From positions 1-33,043 of IMG/VR virus record IMGVR_UViG_3300020175_000021: DNA of 33,043 bases; one strand, given 5' to 3'. The stretch's first letter is position 1, and the number at the start of each line of letters is the position of its first letter. Source of the DNA: a virus. The translations under genes and the position numbers were made by a program. The notes beneath the pieces are model-generated. The model made no database searches. It worked only from the letters and a program-made list of their open reading frames with translations, and was not told where the DNA came from. Shown here piece after piece: positions 9,793 to 32,710 of the stretch.

Positions 9793-10278
9793 CTACTGCA
9801 TTGTTGCAGTAGGATCAAGATATTTATTGAAGTCAGACTCGACAAGATCTGTGTCAAGCAGCAGTCGTTGTCGATAGATTGAGTCAGGGTTGAGTATCCA
9901 CTCTGGTATTGCGCCGCCAGTTTTGATTCGCTTGACCATGAGTACAGCTGCGTCGAGCTTGCTCTGTGATGTCACCTTCAAGCTCTCTGTATTGCGCGAG
10001 TATTCGTCTACAGCTGTCTTCGTTGACATGATGAACGTCTTGATTGTCGGCCACGTACGAGAAGCTTGATACTGTCGGACGTGACCATCGATCTTTTTTA
10101 GCACGACCTCTAAGTCTACCTTCTCGAATGAAGAAGGTATATTATTGTTAATGTCCTCGACAATAAGCTGAAGCTCTTGACCGAGTGTGTCACGATCCAT
10201 GCTAGATGGTGGCGTGTAGCGTTTTAAGATACCCTGTAGCCAGACACCTATCATTGATGTGCGTTGGTTGTAGTCCAT
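9793..10278 (-). CDS. Hypothetical replication-module protein, lambda-P position
   Basis: AAGGAG precedes the ATG, 3 nt after the replication protein's stop. The 161-residue protein is mostly helical and soluble (LGQELQLIVEDINNNIPSSF, VVLKKIDGHVRQYQ, RTWPTIKTFIMS). It has no Walker motif, so it is not a DnaC-like ATPase. It directly follows the initiator-like gene, as lambda P follows O. An adaptor that loads the host helicase is a reasonable guess, but I do not recognise the family. Confidence 0.7.
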   Translation of the reverse strand: MDYNQRTSMIGVWLQGILKRYTPPSSMDRDTLGQELQLIVEDINNNIPSSFEKVDLEVVLKKIDGHVRQYQASRTWPTIKTFIMSTKTAVDEYSRNTESLKVTSQSKLDAAVLMVKRIKTGGAIPEWILNPDSIYRQRLLLDTDLVESDFNKYLDPTATMQ

Positions 10279-13904: not shown

Positions 13905-13918
13905 GGGGCTTACGCCCC
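13905..13918 (-). other. Short GC hairpin at a stop codon
   Basis: GGGGC (13905-13909), a 4-nt loop and GCCCC (13914-13918) enclose the stop codon of the gene at 13910-14359. No T-tract follows on the minus strand. It resembles the other stop-codon hairpins in this leftward operon. Confidence 0.5.
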
Positions 13919-14359
13919 AGCCTCTGCTAATGCTTTACGTTCTGCGGCCATCTTGAGTGCGGCTTTCATTGCATCGCTTTGCTTAGGTGCAGTCTTTAAT
14001 TTCTTAGGCATATATTTGTAAGCTTGTCCGCCAGTAACTATGGTATATACTTGGCAATCAGCATCGTGTCTGATTTGAAGCTCACTTAGTTCAAGTGTTA
14101 AGCGTTGTACGTATTGATCAATACGTTCACAAGCTATGTGATTACCTTCCTTTTTCTTTGTATCGTAATCTGCACCTGCATCTGCAATCTGTCCATTTTT
14201 GTAATTAATGCTACTTAATGATGTGTAGCAAGAATCTTTAGCTATACTCTCAAGGAAGCGTTGATTAACCATCGAAGTGTTTGACTCACCATTTTGATTA
14301 GTATGATATTTAATTACTTCTAGTTTTAACTTAGCTAGATTTGATACGTTATTTGACAT
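13910..14359 (-). CDS. Hypothetical protein, first gene of leftward operon, 149 aa
   Basis: CTAGGAGAACAAC precedes the ATG. The product is mainly helical and soluble, with a Lys/Ala-rich C-terminal helix (SDAMKAALKMAAERKALAEA). A middle segment (ADYDTKKKEGNHIACERIDQ) and YTIVTGGQAYKYMPKKLK are not motifs I recognise. As the promoter-proximal leftward gene, right behind two terminators, it may be an early regulator or host-takeover protein. Confidence 0.75.
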   Translation of the reverse strand: MSNNVSNLAKLKLEVIKYHTNQNGESNTSMVNQRFLESIAKDSCYTSLSSINYKNGQIADAGADYDTKKKEGNHIACERIDQYVQRLTLELSELQIRHDADCQVYTIVTGGQAYKYMPKKLKTAPKQSDAMKAALKMAAERKALAEAGA

Positions 14360-14373
14360 GTTGTTCTCCTAGT

Positions 14374-14396
14374 AAAAAGAGAGGCCAATCCTCTCT
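14374..14396 (-). terminator. Intrinsic terminator, leftward, proximal to first gene
   Basis: On the minus strand AGAGAGG, ATTGG, CCTCTCT form a 7-bp stem directly followed by TTTT. It ends 14 nt before the start codon of the first leftward gene. Confidence 0.75.
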
Positions 14397-14418
14397 ATGC
14401 AGACCAAGAGACAGTAAC

Positions 14419-14437
14419 AAAAAAGCCTACTTAGGCT
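14419..14437 (-). terminator. Intrinsic terminator, leftward, distal of tandem pair
   Basis: On the minus strand AGCCT, AAGT, AGGCT are followed by a run in which six T are present including the stem end. It lies about 23 nt before the second terminator, making a tandem pair in the leader of the leftward operon. Confidence 0.75.
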
Positions 14438-14650
14438 GGTGTGCCTTGCAACTTCTTTCCACGCCTGTGACCAGATGTAAGGAAGGCAAGCATAGAATAG
14501 AATACAGACAGGAGTTAGTGATAAAGGAAAGTGGTTGCGAGGTACTTTTGATGCTGTCATGCAGGTCAAGTAGAGAGGAGTGGCGGCTCTTTCTAGGAGA
14601 ACTCACATGTCACGTATCAAATCTAGATGAGTTAAAACTCTAAGTACCTT

Positions 14651-14677
14651 TTAGTATGTTTTAGTATGTGTAGTATG
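14651..14677. repeat. Three TAGTATG direct repeats, 9-10 bp apart
   Basis: TAGTATG occurs at 14652, 14662 and 14671, i.e. about one helical turn apart, within the control region. Such phasing suits a protein binding one DNA face, for example an HTH regulator encoded by the leftward operon or the small terminase just downstream. Confidence 0.55.
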
Positions 14678-14719: not shown

Positions 14720-14750
14720 TTGACACAGGGTGTATTTGTAGTGCTAAACA
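14720..14750 (+). promoter_or_regulatory. Candidate sigma70-type promoter for packaging/late genes
   Basis: A perfect TTGACA at 14720-14725 is followed by TGCTAAACA, an extended -10-like element (TAAACA at 14745, 19-nt spacer, or GCTAAA with 17 nt). It lies about 40 nt before the terS start codon. The -10 is imperfect, so it may need an activator. Confidence 0.5.
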
Positions 14751-14791
14751 TGGGGGGAGAGAGGGAGAGGGGGGCTACAATAGGAGTTAGT

Positions 14792-15169
14792 ATGGCAAAC
14801 ATAGCACTAAGGAAGTTAACACAGAAACAGACTGCACTCGTTGATGCATATGTAGCAAATGGTGGGAATCTTACACAAGCCTCACAAGAAGCTGGATACG
14901 CTGAGGGCGACAGTGGAAGAGTAACTGCACAGAAGAGTATGAAGCTAGCCCATGTGCAACAGTACATGATGGAAGTGGTGGCTAAAGAGTTTAGCAGACA
15001 TGCTCCTGCGGCAGTACACCAGTTAGCAGGGCTAGCTAAGCAAGCTAAGAGTGAGTACGTACAGCTAGAAGCTAGCAAGGATCTATTGGATAGAGCAGGG
15101 TTTAAGCCTATAGATAGGAGTCAGGTGCAACTTGCAGGAGATATTAAGGTATCGATAGACCTAGGATAG
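14792..15169 (+). CDS. terS: Terminase small subunit
   Basis: The ATG at 14792 has TAGGAG upstream; a longer frame from 14720 includes the promoter and was rejected. The 125-residue protein shows LTQKQTALVDAYVANGGNLT then ASQEAGYAEG, the N-terminal helix-turn-helix of Terminase_2-type small subunits, followed by a helical oligomerisation part (FSRHAPAAVHQLAGLAKQAK, ASKDLLDRAGF). It recognises phage DNA and recruits the large subunit encoded about 1.2 kb downstream. Five short basic or Gly-rich genes separate them. Confidence 0.85.
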   Translation: MANIALRKLTQKQTALVDAYVANGGNLTQASQEAGYAEGDSGRVTAQKSMKLAHVQQYMMEVVAKEFSRHAPAAVHQLAGLAKQAKSEYVQLEASKDLLDRAGFKPIDRSQVQLAGDIKVSIDLG

Positions 15170-28300: not shown

Positions 28301-28472
28301 TGGTACTAAAATTTATCCAATGTTTGATAAAAGTGAAACTGCTGCATTTAGGAAAGATGCAGCATTAAAAAGAAAAACCCAAATAGAAACAGATTTTACT
28401 AATGCGCAAAAAAATAATGAAATAATTAAAAAGTCTAATTACTACAGAAATCGAAGGAAACGCGCACAATGA
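25398..28472 (+). CDS. Internal virion protein, gp15-like, 1024 aa
   Basis: CATAGGAAT precedes the ATG. The sequence is hydrophilic and mostly helical (GKFAIDAYQKVINARYEDSI, YETAMSQYIQSMAENAEGQY), with no signal peptide or membrane segment. It resembles the large gp15-like proteins of marine podoviruses. In T7 gp15 (about 747 aa) is ejected into the periplasm and forms part of the DNA translocation channel. The extra length here lies in charged helical parts. It has higher AT content than the tail genes. Assigned by position, size and composition. Confidence 0.82.
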   Translation: MAVIRQQTQVFNKPVGVRRVNTGEAELWETIKNQADEFTRRAYNDAAENAQKVGAEIAEGVELEGITTLNPITGKPEAFEAPEGMGKFAIDAYQKVINARYEDSISTEMDIKARELGAKYEFDPKGYETAMSQYIQSMAENAEGQYKQYITTTGTEKLAYEKLNVQDRTRKHFRRLETENIAKQLDLAKSRVYNVALNGNFEKANNITAREIKRAHDGINANLLQDGAALQTSNLMNIATGKGLVEHVMNFTSDSDQRNVMKLYLSTKGKKGNITDKKIKNKLDVLLQVINPDTKADILNHFTTTSNNFDVVERDKELAANAAAEIAKAEGIEAAKIRTESSNVGYNKQQEHLFSSASENADHIFSDDATVDEASATLYTVVTQFESLLDQYNKRLIEDSNYSDSEMNADIKLLKRGILEPYILQAAGDGNVDYLQSAIINNDQLSKDKLTDKQLLLVDVLKETNINLEKPIVKSILGLTDNPTEATRKKEAAALKEKVYNARQKALQLSNYDKVADLYAAGNMDVEYLKAEMNVLDSFAGTVFTATEVQTQKNRLKNAYAFGVLQKYSGTASGESMKAMAQYIESGGQDTTGMSSSDIETGQSVLENLSVLSRDTASSKANKLASKISQRENEIQKQIDAKAIYNTVLTNGGDLKVKKHRQATDEILADKGLDDYVNFDTWPIAKKNAAYSIMSHVPPQSLIDSLKDIVNGQNVPNADALLDHYIRLDNHLSGDGITTSRFGGILSYEQKALLNDVNQIRITQGGSAQEIAAVLINRRNDPKSTLAMKQILGIDGDDIKTVNDFVVEELDDMLLAIELKPMVEYMARTGQSRDEIVKRLDEIVEKEYPEVEYIADPRFPMGQMKRSRYGLHATFPDDDEREEFLSIIESQLPNGYSMHAEKYKGTIATADIPLDQQGYFDTSDNDYAFKTGQKKQVYLVPDDTAVGITYYAHVIENNELVPLIYTEDGTKIYPMFDKSETAAFRKDAALKRKTQIETDFTNAQKNNEIIKKSNYYRNRRKRAQ

Positions 28473-31400
28473 AAAATGCTTTTACAGAAATAGCTAAGTT
28501 TGAGCGTAAAGAAAAAAGATTACCTGTAGAAGATGACCCAACATTTGGTGAAACGCTTGAAGCTTCTTTAAAATATAAATACGCACCGCTTGCTAATTTT
28601 ATTACTGAAGGTGTTACGTTTGGATTTGAGCCTAAAGATATGATGGATACATATGATCCGTCACCAGATATACCAGAAAATTTAAAGCCATACGCCTCTT
28701 CTCTGCTTATGGCAAAGTCACCAGAGCATTTATCTTTTAAAATAAGAAATCTAAAAAAAGCATTAAAGACTAATGAAACATTAGCTAGGTCTGGTATAGG
28801 TGCGCAACTTGGTGCAGAATTATTTGATGGTATTAATTATATATCTATACCATTTAGAATGGCAAAAACTGGTGGGCAAGCTTTTCTTAAAGGGGGAATA
28901 GCTACAGGTACAGTTGTTGCTGGGCAAGAAGCTATAAGGTATCCGCTAGATCCTACTGCAAATAAAGAAGAGGTAGCATTAAACTTAGGTGCTTCTTTTT
29001 TCTTAGGCGGCGCACTTAAACACGCAACATCTATAAAATCTATAAGAAAAATAAATGCTATAGAAGATGGTAAAAATGCTATTAATGATATGAAGAAAGC
29101 TCTTGAAGCAGATGATGTAGAATTAGACCCTAACATAGCACCAAGTATCTTTACTGACTCATGGGTATATAAGGCAGCAACAACTCCAATGAAAAGAGTT
29201 ATGACAAATCCTAACGTACCTAACAGTGTTAAGTTGCGTACACTAGGTATAGCTAATGATTCTGGCATTCTTTTAGCTGCAAACAAAGAAGGTAAAAAAA
29301 TTGGAAACTCTGTATTTCAAAATGCAAAATTACATGAAGGCACTTGGGTACGAACAAACGATGATCTTATAAAAATATGGGGTCAGAGTACAGGTAAAGG
29401 CGTTATAAACCCAATGGATTACATGGTTAAACGTGGTGATTATGAAGATTGGTTAGCTTCTGTTGACAAAAAAGCTATGCGAGGAGAGCAACCTGCTAAT
29501 AATTTTGAAGCGCAAGCAATACAAAAATTAAATAAATTTTATGATGATTGGGAAGTGCAACTTAGAGACCAGGGATTAATTGGCAGCCAAGGTGATTATA
29601 CAAAAGTAATTAGATCAAGGCAAAACCGTTTAGATTTATTAGAAAAGCGATTAAAAGCTACAAAAAATCCAGAATATGCAACTACATTAACAGGTCAAAT
29701 TAATAGAATTACAAGGGAGTTAGATGAAGCAAAAGCAAATCTAGCAGACCTAGAAGGTATGGGTGCAATAAAGCCACCTAATGAAGAAATATTTAGACCA
29801 CGCTATTTTGACATGGGTAAAATTAGAAAAAATAGAGATCAGTTTGAAAAGATACTAAGCGATTGGTTTGCTAAAAATCCTGAGATTTGGGTAAAACAAT
29901 CTGATGGTAAATTTAAAAAAGAAACACTTTCATCAGATCCATTAGCAATAAACAAGCGTGTTAAAGCTGTAGTTGATGGAATGATTAATGAGCCAGATCC
30001 ACTTAACCCTGATAAAATGTATTATGGTATGGGTAAATCTAAACACTTTAAACATAGAGCATTAGATATACCAAATGCATTGGTACTTGATTACATGGTT
30101 ACAAATCCTGTTAGTGTTATGAAAGCGTATACAAAGCGCACAGCAGCACGATTAGAGTTTTCTAAAAAACATAATGGTGACAGCATAGACGATATACTAG
30201 ATGACACATTTAATGAAATGATGGACGAAGGTATAGATATAAACACAATACGTTCAGTGCAAAAAGATCAACGCCATTTATATGACAGAGTTGTTGGTAC
30301 AGTTTTGCGCAATCCAGATGCACGCAACCAAACTATAGCTAAAATAATGCGTGACTTAGCGCAGTTAAATTATTTAGGCTCTGCTGGTTTAGCAACAATA
30401 ACAGAGCCAGCAAAAATAATTATGGAGCATGGACTAGGCCCAACTATGCGTGGATTGTTTACTGTATTAAAAAACAATCAATTAAAACTAGGCGCAAAAG
30501 AAGGTCGTATTGCTGGTGAAATACTAGAAATACAAAATGGCTCTAGTCAAATGCGTATGGTTGATGACATTAACAATAATCCATTAAATGTTGAAAAGAT
30601 GGATAAAGTAAAAGATGCGTTTTACTTACTTAATGGTTTAAGTGTTATTACTAGAGCATTAAAAGATTTTGATTCTATGGTGCGATGCCACACTTTAATT
30701 GATTATTCTGTGCGTTGGGCAGAGGGAGTTGACAACCCTAAAGGTAGTATAAGAGCTACAAAAATGGAACAAGAATATCTTTTGCGTTATAATATTGATC
30801 TTGATGATGCACGAAGAATTGCTAAATCTCCTTGGGAAAAAGGTGAATCTGGATTGTATTTAGCTAACACTGAAGCGTGGGCAAATACTATAGAATTTCC
30901 AACAACTAAAGCAGATATAATAAGTGGGCCAACTAATGCTTATGCTAAAGATGGGCGTTATAGACCAGCTTTTTATAAAGAAAGAAATGGTGTAGGCACT
31001 ATACACATTGATGAAGAATATATTAAAAATGTTATGTACGATCAACGCGGTTGGGAAAACCCAAGAGTTGAAGGTGTGAGGCCACTTGAAACTGGTCTTA
31101 TAAATTCTCCAGAAGATTATGTTACATTTATAAAAATGCATGAAATTATGCACAGTAATTTTTCTGCAAAAGATTTAGGTTTTTTAAAAACTGCAACAAT
31201 ATTACGTGAAGTTCCAAATGAAAAAAAAGTAGTTGGTTATAGAAGAAAAGAAAATATAGATACATCAGGTACATATTTTGTTCATTATACAAGAAAACAA
31301 AACATAGAATCTCTTTTACGCAATGGTTATGACGTAAATAAAAAATCTATATTTCCACTAGCAACTGGTGAAAAATTAGCTGGTGATGTTATGTATTTTA

Positions 31401-32710
31401 CAAATGATATAAATCGTTGGAAGCAGGGTGATATCAAAGTTAAAGAAGGCACTGGAAATATAGATGATATTAATTATGATTATAACAAACAAGAATGGGT
31501 TACTAAGAAAAAAGGTTTAAAAAAAGAAACTTTAGAGCCTGTTGGTGCATATCTTGCAAAAGATGCAAAACTTTTAGTAATTGATTCTTGGGAAAAATAT
31601 CAAAAAATTGCTAGTGAATTAAAAGTTACTGGCGGCATGAGCGAATTAACAAAGTTAGCAAATAAAAAATATGACGCTATACACTTGTTAAATAAAAAAG
31701 ATGGTGGCTGGGATGTCCCATTAGAAAAACAAAAGAAAGATAAATATGGTGATACGATTACAAATTACTATGATGAAGTATCTTTAAATTCTGGAAATAG
31801 TGATTTTTTTGTATTTAATAAAAATAAAGTTGAATTTGAAAAAGAAGTTTTTGAAGAAACAACTGTTGAATATAATACAGTAAAAGAAAGTCGTGAAGAA
31901 ATAGATCTTGCTGGTTACGAAAATGCTATTAATGATTTGGCTGCAGCTAATATAAAAAATCAAAATCGCACAAGTGACGAAACAGTGCAAACATTTAGAA
32001 ACGCATTAGGCTCTGGTATAATGAATACTATACTTATGGGTACACCAGCAGATAAACCAATTATTACTGATGGTATTGTTTATATTCCTATGCGTGTAGC
32101 TGGTAAGTTTGGCATGAAAGAAGACTCTGCGTATAAAGGTTATGCGCGTATAGAAAATGGATTGCTTGGATTGCCATTCCAGTTTTATAGCTACTCACTA
32201 GCAGCAGTAAACAAAACTATGGGTGCGTATGCACATGGTCAATTTAAAAATCAATATATTGGTACAGCAATAGCAATGGGATTAGGTTACATGGCATTGC
32301 AAGCAAAGACACCAGATTGGGTAGAGTTGTCGTTCCAAGATCAATTTGCTAGATCATTAGATTACTCAGGTATAATGCCATTATACTCTGATATGTTTTA
32401 CACAGCTATGACTACAACGCTAGCAATGGATGGCCCAAATATAACTGGAGGTGCATTGCAACCTAAGTTTCCACAAGAAGCAGATACATATGATGCAGTA
32501 TCTGGGGTAATGGGTGCTGGACCAAGTATAACAACAGATCTTAGTAGAGCTATATATGAAATAGCTACAGGTGATGTAGGTGAAGGGTCTAAAGATTTTA
32601 TAAGAAATTTACCATATGCAAGACTTTGGTTTTTAAAAGGCAAAGTAAATGAATTAACCAATATGCTTGAAGGTGAATTAGATGGGCCTAGAGGGTTTGG
32701 TAGGTTCTAA
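28469..32710 (+). CDS. Internal virion protein, gp16-like, with inserted effector domains
   Basis: ATGA overlaps the previous stop. Residues ~1-806 and ~1170-1413 read as one helical injected protein, with ALGSGIMNTILMGTPADKP, YARIENGLLGLPFQFYSY and PKFPQEADTYDAVSGVMGAG in the C-terminal part, as in marine gp16-like proteins. No N-terminal lysozyme motif of T7 gp16 was recognised. Between NTEAWAN (to residue 806) and SDETVQTF (from 1169) lies an apparent ~360-residue insertion. It contains MHEIMHS (His891, Glu892, His895; HExxH), then an ART-like domain (VHYTRKQNIESLLRNG from 938, VMYFTND at 974, YDEV at 1101, FFVFNKNKVEF at 1113-1123) and GYENAIND (1149-1156), possibly the end of the peptidase domain. 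Enzymatic roles are inferred. Confidence 0.85.
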   Translation: MKNAFTEIAKFERKEKRLPVEDDPTFGETLEASLKYKYAPLANFITEGVTFGFEPKDMMDTYDPSPDIPENLKPYASSLLMAKSPEHLSFKIRNLKKALKTNETLARSGIGAQLGAELFDGINYISIPFRMAKTGGQAFLKGGIATGTVVAGQEAIRYPLDPTANKEEVALNLGASFFLGGALKHATSIKSIRKINAIEDGKNAINDMKKALEADDVELDPNIAPSIFTDSWVYKAATTPMKRVMTNPNVPNSVKLRTLGIANDSGILLAANKEGKKIGNSVFQNAKLHEGTWVRTNDDLIKIWGQSTGKGVINPMDYMVKRGDYEDWLASVDKKAMRGEQPANNFEAQAIQKLNKFYDDWEVQLRDQGLIGSQGDYTKVIRSRQNRLDLLEKRLKATKNPEYATTLTGQINRITRELDEAKANLADLEGMGAIKPPNEEIFRPRYFDMGKIRKNRDQFEKILSDWFAKNPEIWVKQSDGKFKKETLSSDPLAINKRVKAVVDGMINEPDPLNPDKMYYGMGKSKHFKHRALDIPNALVLDYMVTNPVSVMKAYTKRTAARLEFSKKHNGDSIDDILDDTFNEMMDEGIDINTIRSVQKDQRHLYDRVVGTVLRNPDARNQTIAKIMRDLAQLNYLGSAGLATITEPAKIIMEHGLGPTMRGLFTVLKNNQLKLGAKEGRIAGEILEIQNGSSQMRMVDDINNNPLNVEKMDKVKDAFYLLNGLSVITRALKDFDSMVRCHTLIDYSVRWAEGVDNPKGSIRATKMEQEYLLRYNIDLDDARRIAKSPWEKGESGLYLANTEAWANTIEFPTTKADIISGPTNAYAKDGRYRPAFYKERNGVGTIHIDEEYIKNVMYDQRGWENPRVEGVRPLETGLINSPEDYVTFIKMHEIMHSNFSAKDLGFLKTATILREVPNEKKVVGYRRKENIDTSGTYFVHYTRKQNIESLLRNGYDVNKKSIFPLATGEKLAGDVMYFTNDINRWKQGDIKVKEGTGNIDDINYDYNKQEWVTKKKGLKKETLEPVGAYLAKDAKLLVIDSWEKYQKIASELKVTGGMSELTKLANKKYDAIHLLNKKDGGWDVPLEKQKKDKYGDTITNYYDEVSLNSGNSDFFVFNKNKVEFEKEVFEETTVEYNTVKESREEIDLAGYENAINDLAAANIKNQNRTSDETVQTFRNALGSGIMNTILMGTPADKPIITDGIVYIPMRVAGKFGMKEDSAYKGYARIENGLLGLPFQFYSYSLAAVNKTMGAYAHGQFKNQYIGTAIAMGLGYMALQAKTPDWVELSFQDQFARSLDYSGIMPLYSDMFYTAMTTTLAMDGPNITGGALQPKFPQEADTYDAVSGVMGAGPSITTDLSRAIYEIATGDVGEGSKDFIRNLPYARLWFLKGKVNELTNMLEGELDGPRGFGRF

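Follow-up and report, generated by a model that had tools for sequence, protein, structure and literature searches.

A non-coding inverted copy of the first leftward gene forms a conserved rod in marine podovirus-like phages and probably controls when that gene is made

How can the first gene of a leftward phage operon be expressed if two terminator-like hairpins stand directly in front of it? The question is raised by the window, the whole stretch of DNA analysed here, which is a marine podovirus-like contig of 33 kb (33,043 nt; IMG/VR record IMGVR_UViG_3300020175_000021). The genes for the terminase large subunit, the portal and the major capsid protein are encoded rightward in the window, and those for a RecE-like exonuclease and a replication initiator are encoded leftward. 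A tail-fibre-like protein with YadA head repeats lies at the left end (16-2622, rightward), and a rightward ORF of 1413 amino acids (28469-32710) extends almost to the right end; the two end ORFs suggest that the contig is circularly permuted. The protein encoded by the first leftward gene, here gene 1, is predicted to be all-helical and to form a helical hairpin. It has no family match, a fold search gave a best PDB match of only E = 0.14 and thus no solved relative, and its best viral match is an unnamed protein (8.8e-4). The features from which the question starts are:

14792-15169, rightward strand: terminase small subunit gene
13910-14359, leftward strand: gene 1, first gene of the leftward operon, 149 amino acids
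14418-14437, leftward strand: hairpin T1, stem 14437-14424 (AGCCT-AAGT-AGGCT) followed by TTTTTTG, -5.2 kcal/mol
14373-14396, leftward strand: hairpin T2, also called P4, stem 14396-14378 (AGAGAGG-ATTGG-CCTCTCT) followed by TTTTTA, -10 kcal/mol

The original prediction proposed two tandem terminators that are either passed by antitermination or end a small RNA. Both hairpins and their T-runs are indeed present, and each consists of a GC-rich hairpin followed by a T-run, as demanded of an intrinsic terminator. The T-run of T2 ends about 14 nt upstream of the ATG of gene 1 (14359-14357), as claimed, and the gap between T2 and the gene is thus too short for a promoter. Terminator-like sites are enriched between positions 10000 and 20000 (16 vs 7.3 +/- 2.9 in shuffles), and a same-strand pair within 60 nt is therefore above chance. 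T1 alone is weak, since shuffling its 31-nt context gives an equally good fold in 38 of 200 cases. The relatives do not share this arrangement. Among 114 distinct 60-nt stretches preceding gene 1, a perfect hairpin (stem of at least 5 bp) is found in 59, and only three of these 59, all from the window's own lineage, carry a T-run behind the hairpin at the site of T2. The T-run of T1 forms one side of a conserved stem, P1, and is often reduced to 0-4 T in relatives; T1 itself is the short hairpin of a three-way junction. The tandem-terminator look, as judged from these alignments, is thus local to the window's lineage and not a conserved theme. A plain terminator pair was rejected as a general explanation because 56 of the 59 hairpins lack the T-run. 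Searches of Rfam at gathering and permissive thresholds revealed no match to an antiterminator family of the put or nut type. The loop of hairpin P4 (14378-14396, leftward) is of the type GGnUGGnCC and similar in several diverged lineages, where it is kept despite a drifted mirror arm; it could possibly be a protein-binding site.

Both hairpins lie inside a larger inverted-repeat element (14315-14646) that was absent from the original prediction. Its two arms, 14315-14397 and 14571-14646, are 80% identical over 84 columns and enclose a structured tip:

14315-14397, leftward strand: gene-side arm of the rod (from inverted repeat, fold and covariation)
14571-14646, rightward strand: mirror arm, a non-coding, degenerate inverted copy of 14315-14397 (from inverted repeat)
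14410-14558, rightward strand: rod tip, a three-way junction (from fold and covariation)
About 14410-14424 with 14546-14558: stem P1 of the rod tip
About 14441-14466 with 14525-14545: long hairpin P2 of the rod tip
14418-14437: short hairpin P3 of the rod tip, identical to T1

The gene-side arm comprises the first 15 codons of gene 1 with the ATG, the ribosome site AGGAG (14370-14366) and T2/P4. The mirror arm carries a pseudo ribosome site and an ATG (14607-14609), which is followed by a stop seven codons later. The RNA of the leftward strand is predicted to fold into a single rod of -114 kcal/mol (z = -13.2), in which the upstream arm opens T2 into the stem and T1 remains as a short hairpin at the tip. 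Comparison with Rfam, again at gathering and permissive thresholds, yielded neither a ribozyme nor any other known RNA family, and a DNA-level search of phage records gave zero matches.

About 280 loci were collected by portal, terminase, gene 1 and polypurine-tract searches. Twelve near relatives share the fold, with 84 pairs of which 99.4% of the pair cells are kept; none of 500 shuffles paired as well, and slid controls reached 36-41%. The compensatory changes that the original prediction had called for were found, as 23 of the 84 pairs are changed on both sides; the twelve relatives fall into two sequence subgroups, so many of these both-side changes represent one event each. The ribosome site, for instance, is paired as GUUCUCCUAG:CUAGGAGAAC in one subgroup and as GUACCUCUAG:CUAGAGGUAC in the other (leftward letters). 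The claim of a structured leader therefore holds. TGCCTT (14442-14447) and AAGGCA (14483-14488), which were thought to pair with each other, are present; their pairing is not supported, and the conserved fold pairs GCCTTGCAAC with GTTGCGAGGT instead. Among 94 distinct leaders, 59 fold with a z-score below -4, and in 48 at least 10 of the 17 nt from the ribosome site to the AUG have their partners in the leftward RNA over 100 nt further upstream, which places the translation start opposite an upstream arm. The rod of the isolate Pelagibacter phage EXVC031P Hodr folds with z = -9.3. Taken together, the rod structure is well supported by comparative sequence analysis. Some lineages possess rods that do not overlap the gene start, among them a cluster with a different first gene (L121, L142, L195 and L220), whose rightward consensus contains 82 G.U and no A.C cells.

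What is mirrored is the gene itself. In a strand-neutral alignment, an inverted copy of gene 1 scores clearly above shuffles in 47 of the 94 leaders, and the arms are thus homologous to the gene beyond chance, as expected of an inverted duplication. The shortest copies cover about 30 nt of coding sequence, and the longest take in all of gene 1 and continue past its stop. Full-gene copies occur in seven lineages (L185, L067, L143, L193, L024, L088 and L241) with up to 493 aligned nt at 76-86% identity; the rods of these lineages measure about 900 nt or longer, and the gene makes up one of their sides. Hodr has its own mirror copy, which reaches ATG+147, or +211 when a longer alignment is made. 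Of 238 other gene starts on these contigs, not one scores 40 or more, compared with 7 of 13 tract-adjacent gene starts scoring 50 or more. Comparison of relatives shows that the arms are a true inverted copy and that compensatory changes maintain their complementarity. A coding mirror gene, i.e. a divergent paralogue, was rejected, as each full-length copy examined contains about 26-41 small indels, mostly not multiples of three. An assembly or amplification chimera was judged unlikely since the arms have diverged (about 70-94% identical) and are found in many metagenomes and one isolate.

The tract next to these gene starts is the polypurine sequence GGGGGGAGAGAGGGAGAGGGGGG (14752-14774, rightward), which immediately precedes the gene for the terminase small subunit; scanning viral contigs for exact matches returned at least 120 stretches. 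It is possibly a packaging or promoter element. Upstream of it, TTGACA and GTGCTA are separated by 15 nt (14720-14746, rightward); the pattern TTGACA-N15-GTGYYN is seen again in relatives, and the motif in the window is probably the rightward promoter. Palindromes of the types GTGACGTnnCGTCAC and AGGTAnnnnnnTACCT lie between tract and rod in four lineages (L062, L045, L024 and L019). In relatives they are flanked by promoter-like motifs in divergent orientation; no such palindrome is evident in the window. They are possible operators. A search of bacterial and archaeal genomes for gene 1 relatives returned one contig (L284, PBGS01000047.1), which is binned as a Euryarchaeota MAG. It carries tract, terminase genes and rod in the same architecture and is probably a mis-binned phage.

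Which of the two strands does selection act on? Selection on the leftward mRNA would be expected to leave G.U as the imperfect pairs of that strand; the reverse was observed. Changes from gene to copy at nine loci comprise 153 A>G, 94 C>T, 17 G>A and 16 T>C, and as the first two types correspond to G.U on the rightward strand, 247 arm transitions stand vs 33. In 17 pairs of close relatives, with every locus used once, changes between a Watson-Crick pair and a rightward G.U outnumber those between Watson-Crick and A.C (100 vs 24). The same 17 pairs contain 39 double Watson-Crick-to-Watson-Crick changes. As listed for nine of the pairs, double changes are mostly single scattered sites (27 transitions, 12 transversions); 16 of the 24 coding ones fall on third codon positions, and some sites recur between related pairs, which lowers the number of independent events. 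Folds restricted to Watson-Crick pairs contain 74 A.C and 12 G.T single mismatches on the leftward strand, as counted in 45 leaders picked for long-range pairing. Furthermore, the alifold energy is lower for the rightward strand in all ten clusters, and gCUUGc tetraloops, which are known to be stable, occur seven times on the rightward and never on the leftward strand. The four-fold sites of neighbouring genes lack the G enrichment of the copies, and strand-biased mutation alone was judged unlikely because their composition does not explain the gain of G. The contrast in z-scores between the strands is small (-7.9 vs -6.9), and the alignment of near relatives by itself separates the strands poorly. 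Single-stranded DNA of the same strand would produce a bias of the same sign. Overall, the strand assignment is fairly well supported, with the rightward, antisense RNA as the apparent target of selection.

The edges of the rod tell a different story, which is the main tension with the strand result. Two features are of interest here:

14281-14307, rightward strand: candidate promoter TTGACT-15-TATGAT, score 10.2 (control mean 4.1, sd 1.7)
14649-14677, leftward strand: three 10-nt repeats of the CATACTAAAA type at the right rod edge

The predicted start of the candidate rightward promoter falls on the left rod edge in the window; across all lineages, the rightward signal at this edge is weak (p = 0.03). 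The leftward promoter signal at the right edge, where a CATACTA-type motif is found, is stronger (p = 5e-5), and relatives have the leftward promoter-like motif CATACTAYAA at the site of the repeats. Most lineages with a full copy also show a hairpin or terminator-like leftward sequence at the far end. Judged by these motifs, the rod is bounded more like a leftward than a rightward transcript. A published pelagiphage transcriptome does not mention antisense or non-coding RNA; the phages studied there are not known to carry the rod.

Our tentative proposal, which falls somewhat short of even odds, is that the locus encodes a long rod RNA, most likely from the rightward strand, in which an arm containing the start of gene 1 is paired with a non-coding mirror arm and which gates gene 1 by being antisense to its start. 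We infer that the rightward RNA is made and that it is the selected molecule. Its 5' arm would be perfectly antisense to the ribosome site and start codon of gene 1, and its internal pairing would be weakened by G.U pairs and bulges, so that the arm might be released onto the gene 1 mRNA. As an antisense hairpin encoded in cis, the rod would then silence gene 1 or set the time of its expression, and the start of the leftward mRNA, likewise paired with its own leader, would reinforce the block. The rod probably controls when gene 1 is made.

The strand tests demote to a rival the reading in which the functional molecule is the leftward mRNA. The leader of this mRNA would cover the ribosome site and AUG of gene 1 by back-folding. 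Translation would be off in the long rod and on when the local hairpin P4 forms, and the switch might be thrown by RNase III, by a protein or by the kinetics of folding. The leaders of lambda N and the MS2 maturation gene gate translation in this manner. The start-region pairing in 48 of the 94 leaders, the leftward promoter signal at the right edge, rod bounds resembling a leftward transcription unit and the hairpin that 59 of 114 stretches retain right in front of the ribosome site all suit this reading. G.U tolerance on the mRNA strand, however, is not what was found, since the bias is opposite and the leftward mismatches are A.C, and the pairing need not span a whole gene, yet does so in seven lineages; we regard the reading as possible but unlikely. 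The two leftward terminators of the original prediction are still less credible, and we consider them improbable as a general explanation. In the window's lineage both hairpins do have T-runs, and the long fold would open T2; these points are set against the missing T-runs and shrinking T1 run of the relatives and against strand tests that favour a rightward over a leftward RNA. Antitermination, attenuation or a terminated leftward small RNA may exist in this one lineage.

The rod RNA might instead have a function of its own, as a stable ribonucleoprotein, possibly bound by the gene 1 protein, or as an RNA-copied molecule with the geometry of Obelisks or hepatitis delta virus (HDV). Full-copy rods of about 900 nt or more, rods away from the gene start and the predicted helical hairpin of the gene 1 protein would be in line with this idea. 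The locus is DNA-encoded, however, Rfam contains no matching ribozyme or RNA family, and RNA binding by a protein without a solved relative is only putative, so that we hold such a function to be rather improbable. The same rather low probability is given to a widespread class in marine podoviruses, in which a whole gene is paired to its inverted copy and an antisense-selected rod of up to about 1 kb is perhaps protein-bound or RNA-copied. Template switching during replication can create and maintain hairpins (PMC8794818), and folded single-strand promoters such as Frpo of the F plasmid are known (PMC9849209). The mirror copy could accordingly be a mutational by-product refreshed by template switching, or a DNA element formed by the folded single-stranded rightward strand, e.g. 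a priming or promoter site. Template switching is plausible as the origin of the copy. Template-switch tracts were rejected because most of the double changes are scattered single sites, frequently at third codon positions; moreover, the 4- to 7-fold G.U bias and the gCUUGc loops favour RNA, and the phenomenon is confined to one locus. A by-product or DNA element is hence quite unlikely.

Several known systems share single traits with the rod. In the lambda N and MS2 maturation-gene leaders, an upstream arm is paired to an early gene at its ribosome site and start codon, as the rod arm is; unlike the rod, these leaders do not mirror coding sequence, and the substitutions in the rod fit the opposite strand. 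Lambda OOP and FinP exemplify cis-encoded antisense RNAs to an mRNA start that are folded into stem-loops. The putative rod RNA has the same relation to its mRNA start and is also folded into stem-loops, but a sense-like mirror copy within one and the same molecule hides its antisense arm, and the RNA is only predicted. HK022 put is a short antitermination RNA of two hairpins; it resembles the rod as a structured RNA early in a leftward phage transcript, whereas the rod comprises 300-900 nt of variable sequence. Plant MIR or hairpin-RNA genes arose when their target gene was duplicated in inverted orientation (PMC3237417), and their arms, too, consist of a gene segment and an inverted copy, with one arm antisense. 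They act in trans via Dicer and Argonaute, whereas the phage copy lies in cis and follows the gene, in some lineages along its full length. Obelisks and HDV form rods in which an ORF occupies one side and pairs with non-coding sequence (PMC11922315), a geometry that the rod shares in its full-copy form at up to about 1 kb; in contrast to these RNA replicons, it is a DNA phage locus in which no ribozyme was detected. The locus cannot be assigned to plant hairpin genes, start-hiding leaders or Obelisks and HDV, since in each comparison a defining feature either failed or is only putative. To our knowledge, neither bacteria nor their viruses offer a counterpart to an inverted non-coding copy that continues to track a protein gene. 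Among Rfam families and open-access PMC papers, none describing such a locus was found, although absence there is no proof of novelty. The claim of novelty concerns the architecture, and the mechanism may turn out to be of a known kind.

If the proposal is true, marine phages would harbour a large, fast-evolving class of RNA, in which RNA pairing and protein coding evolve under joint constraint. It would also represent a new and testable kind of early-gene control, and the rod is open to experiment, as the isolate Hodr has a cultured host, strain HTCC1062.
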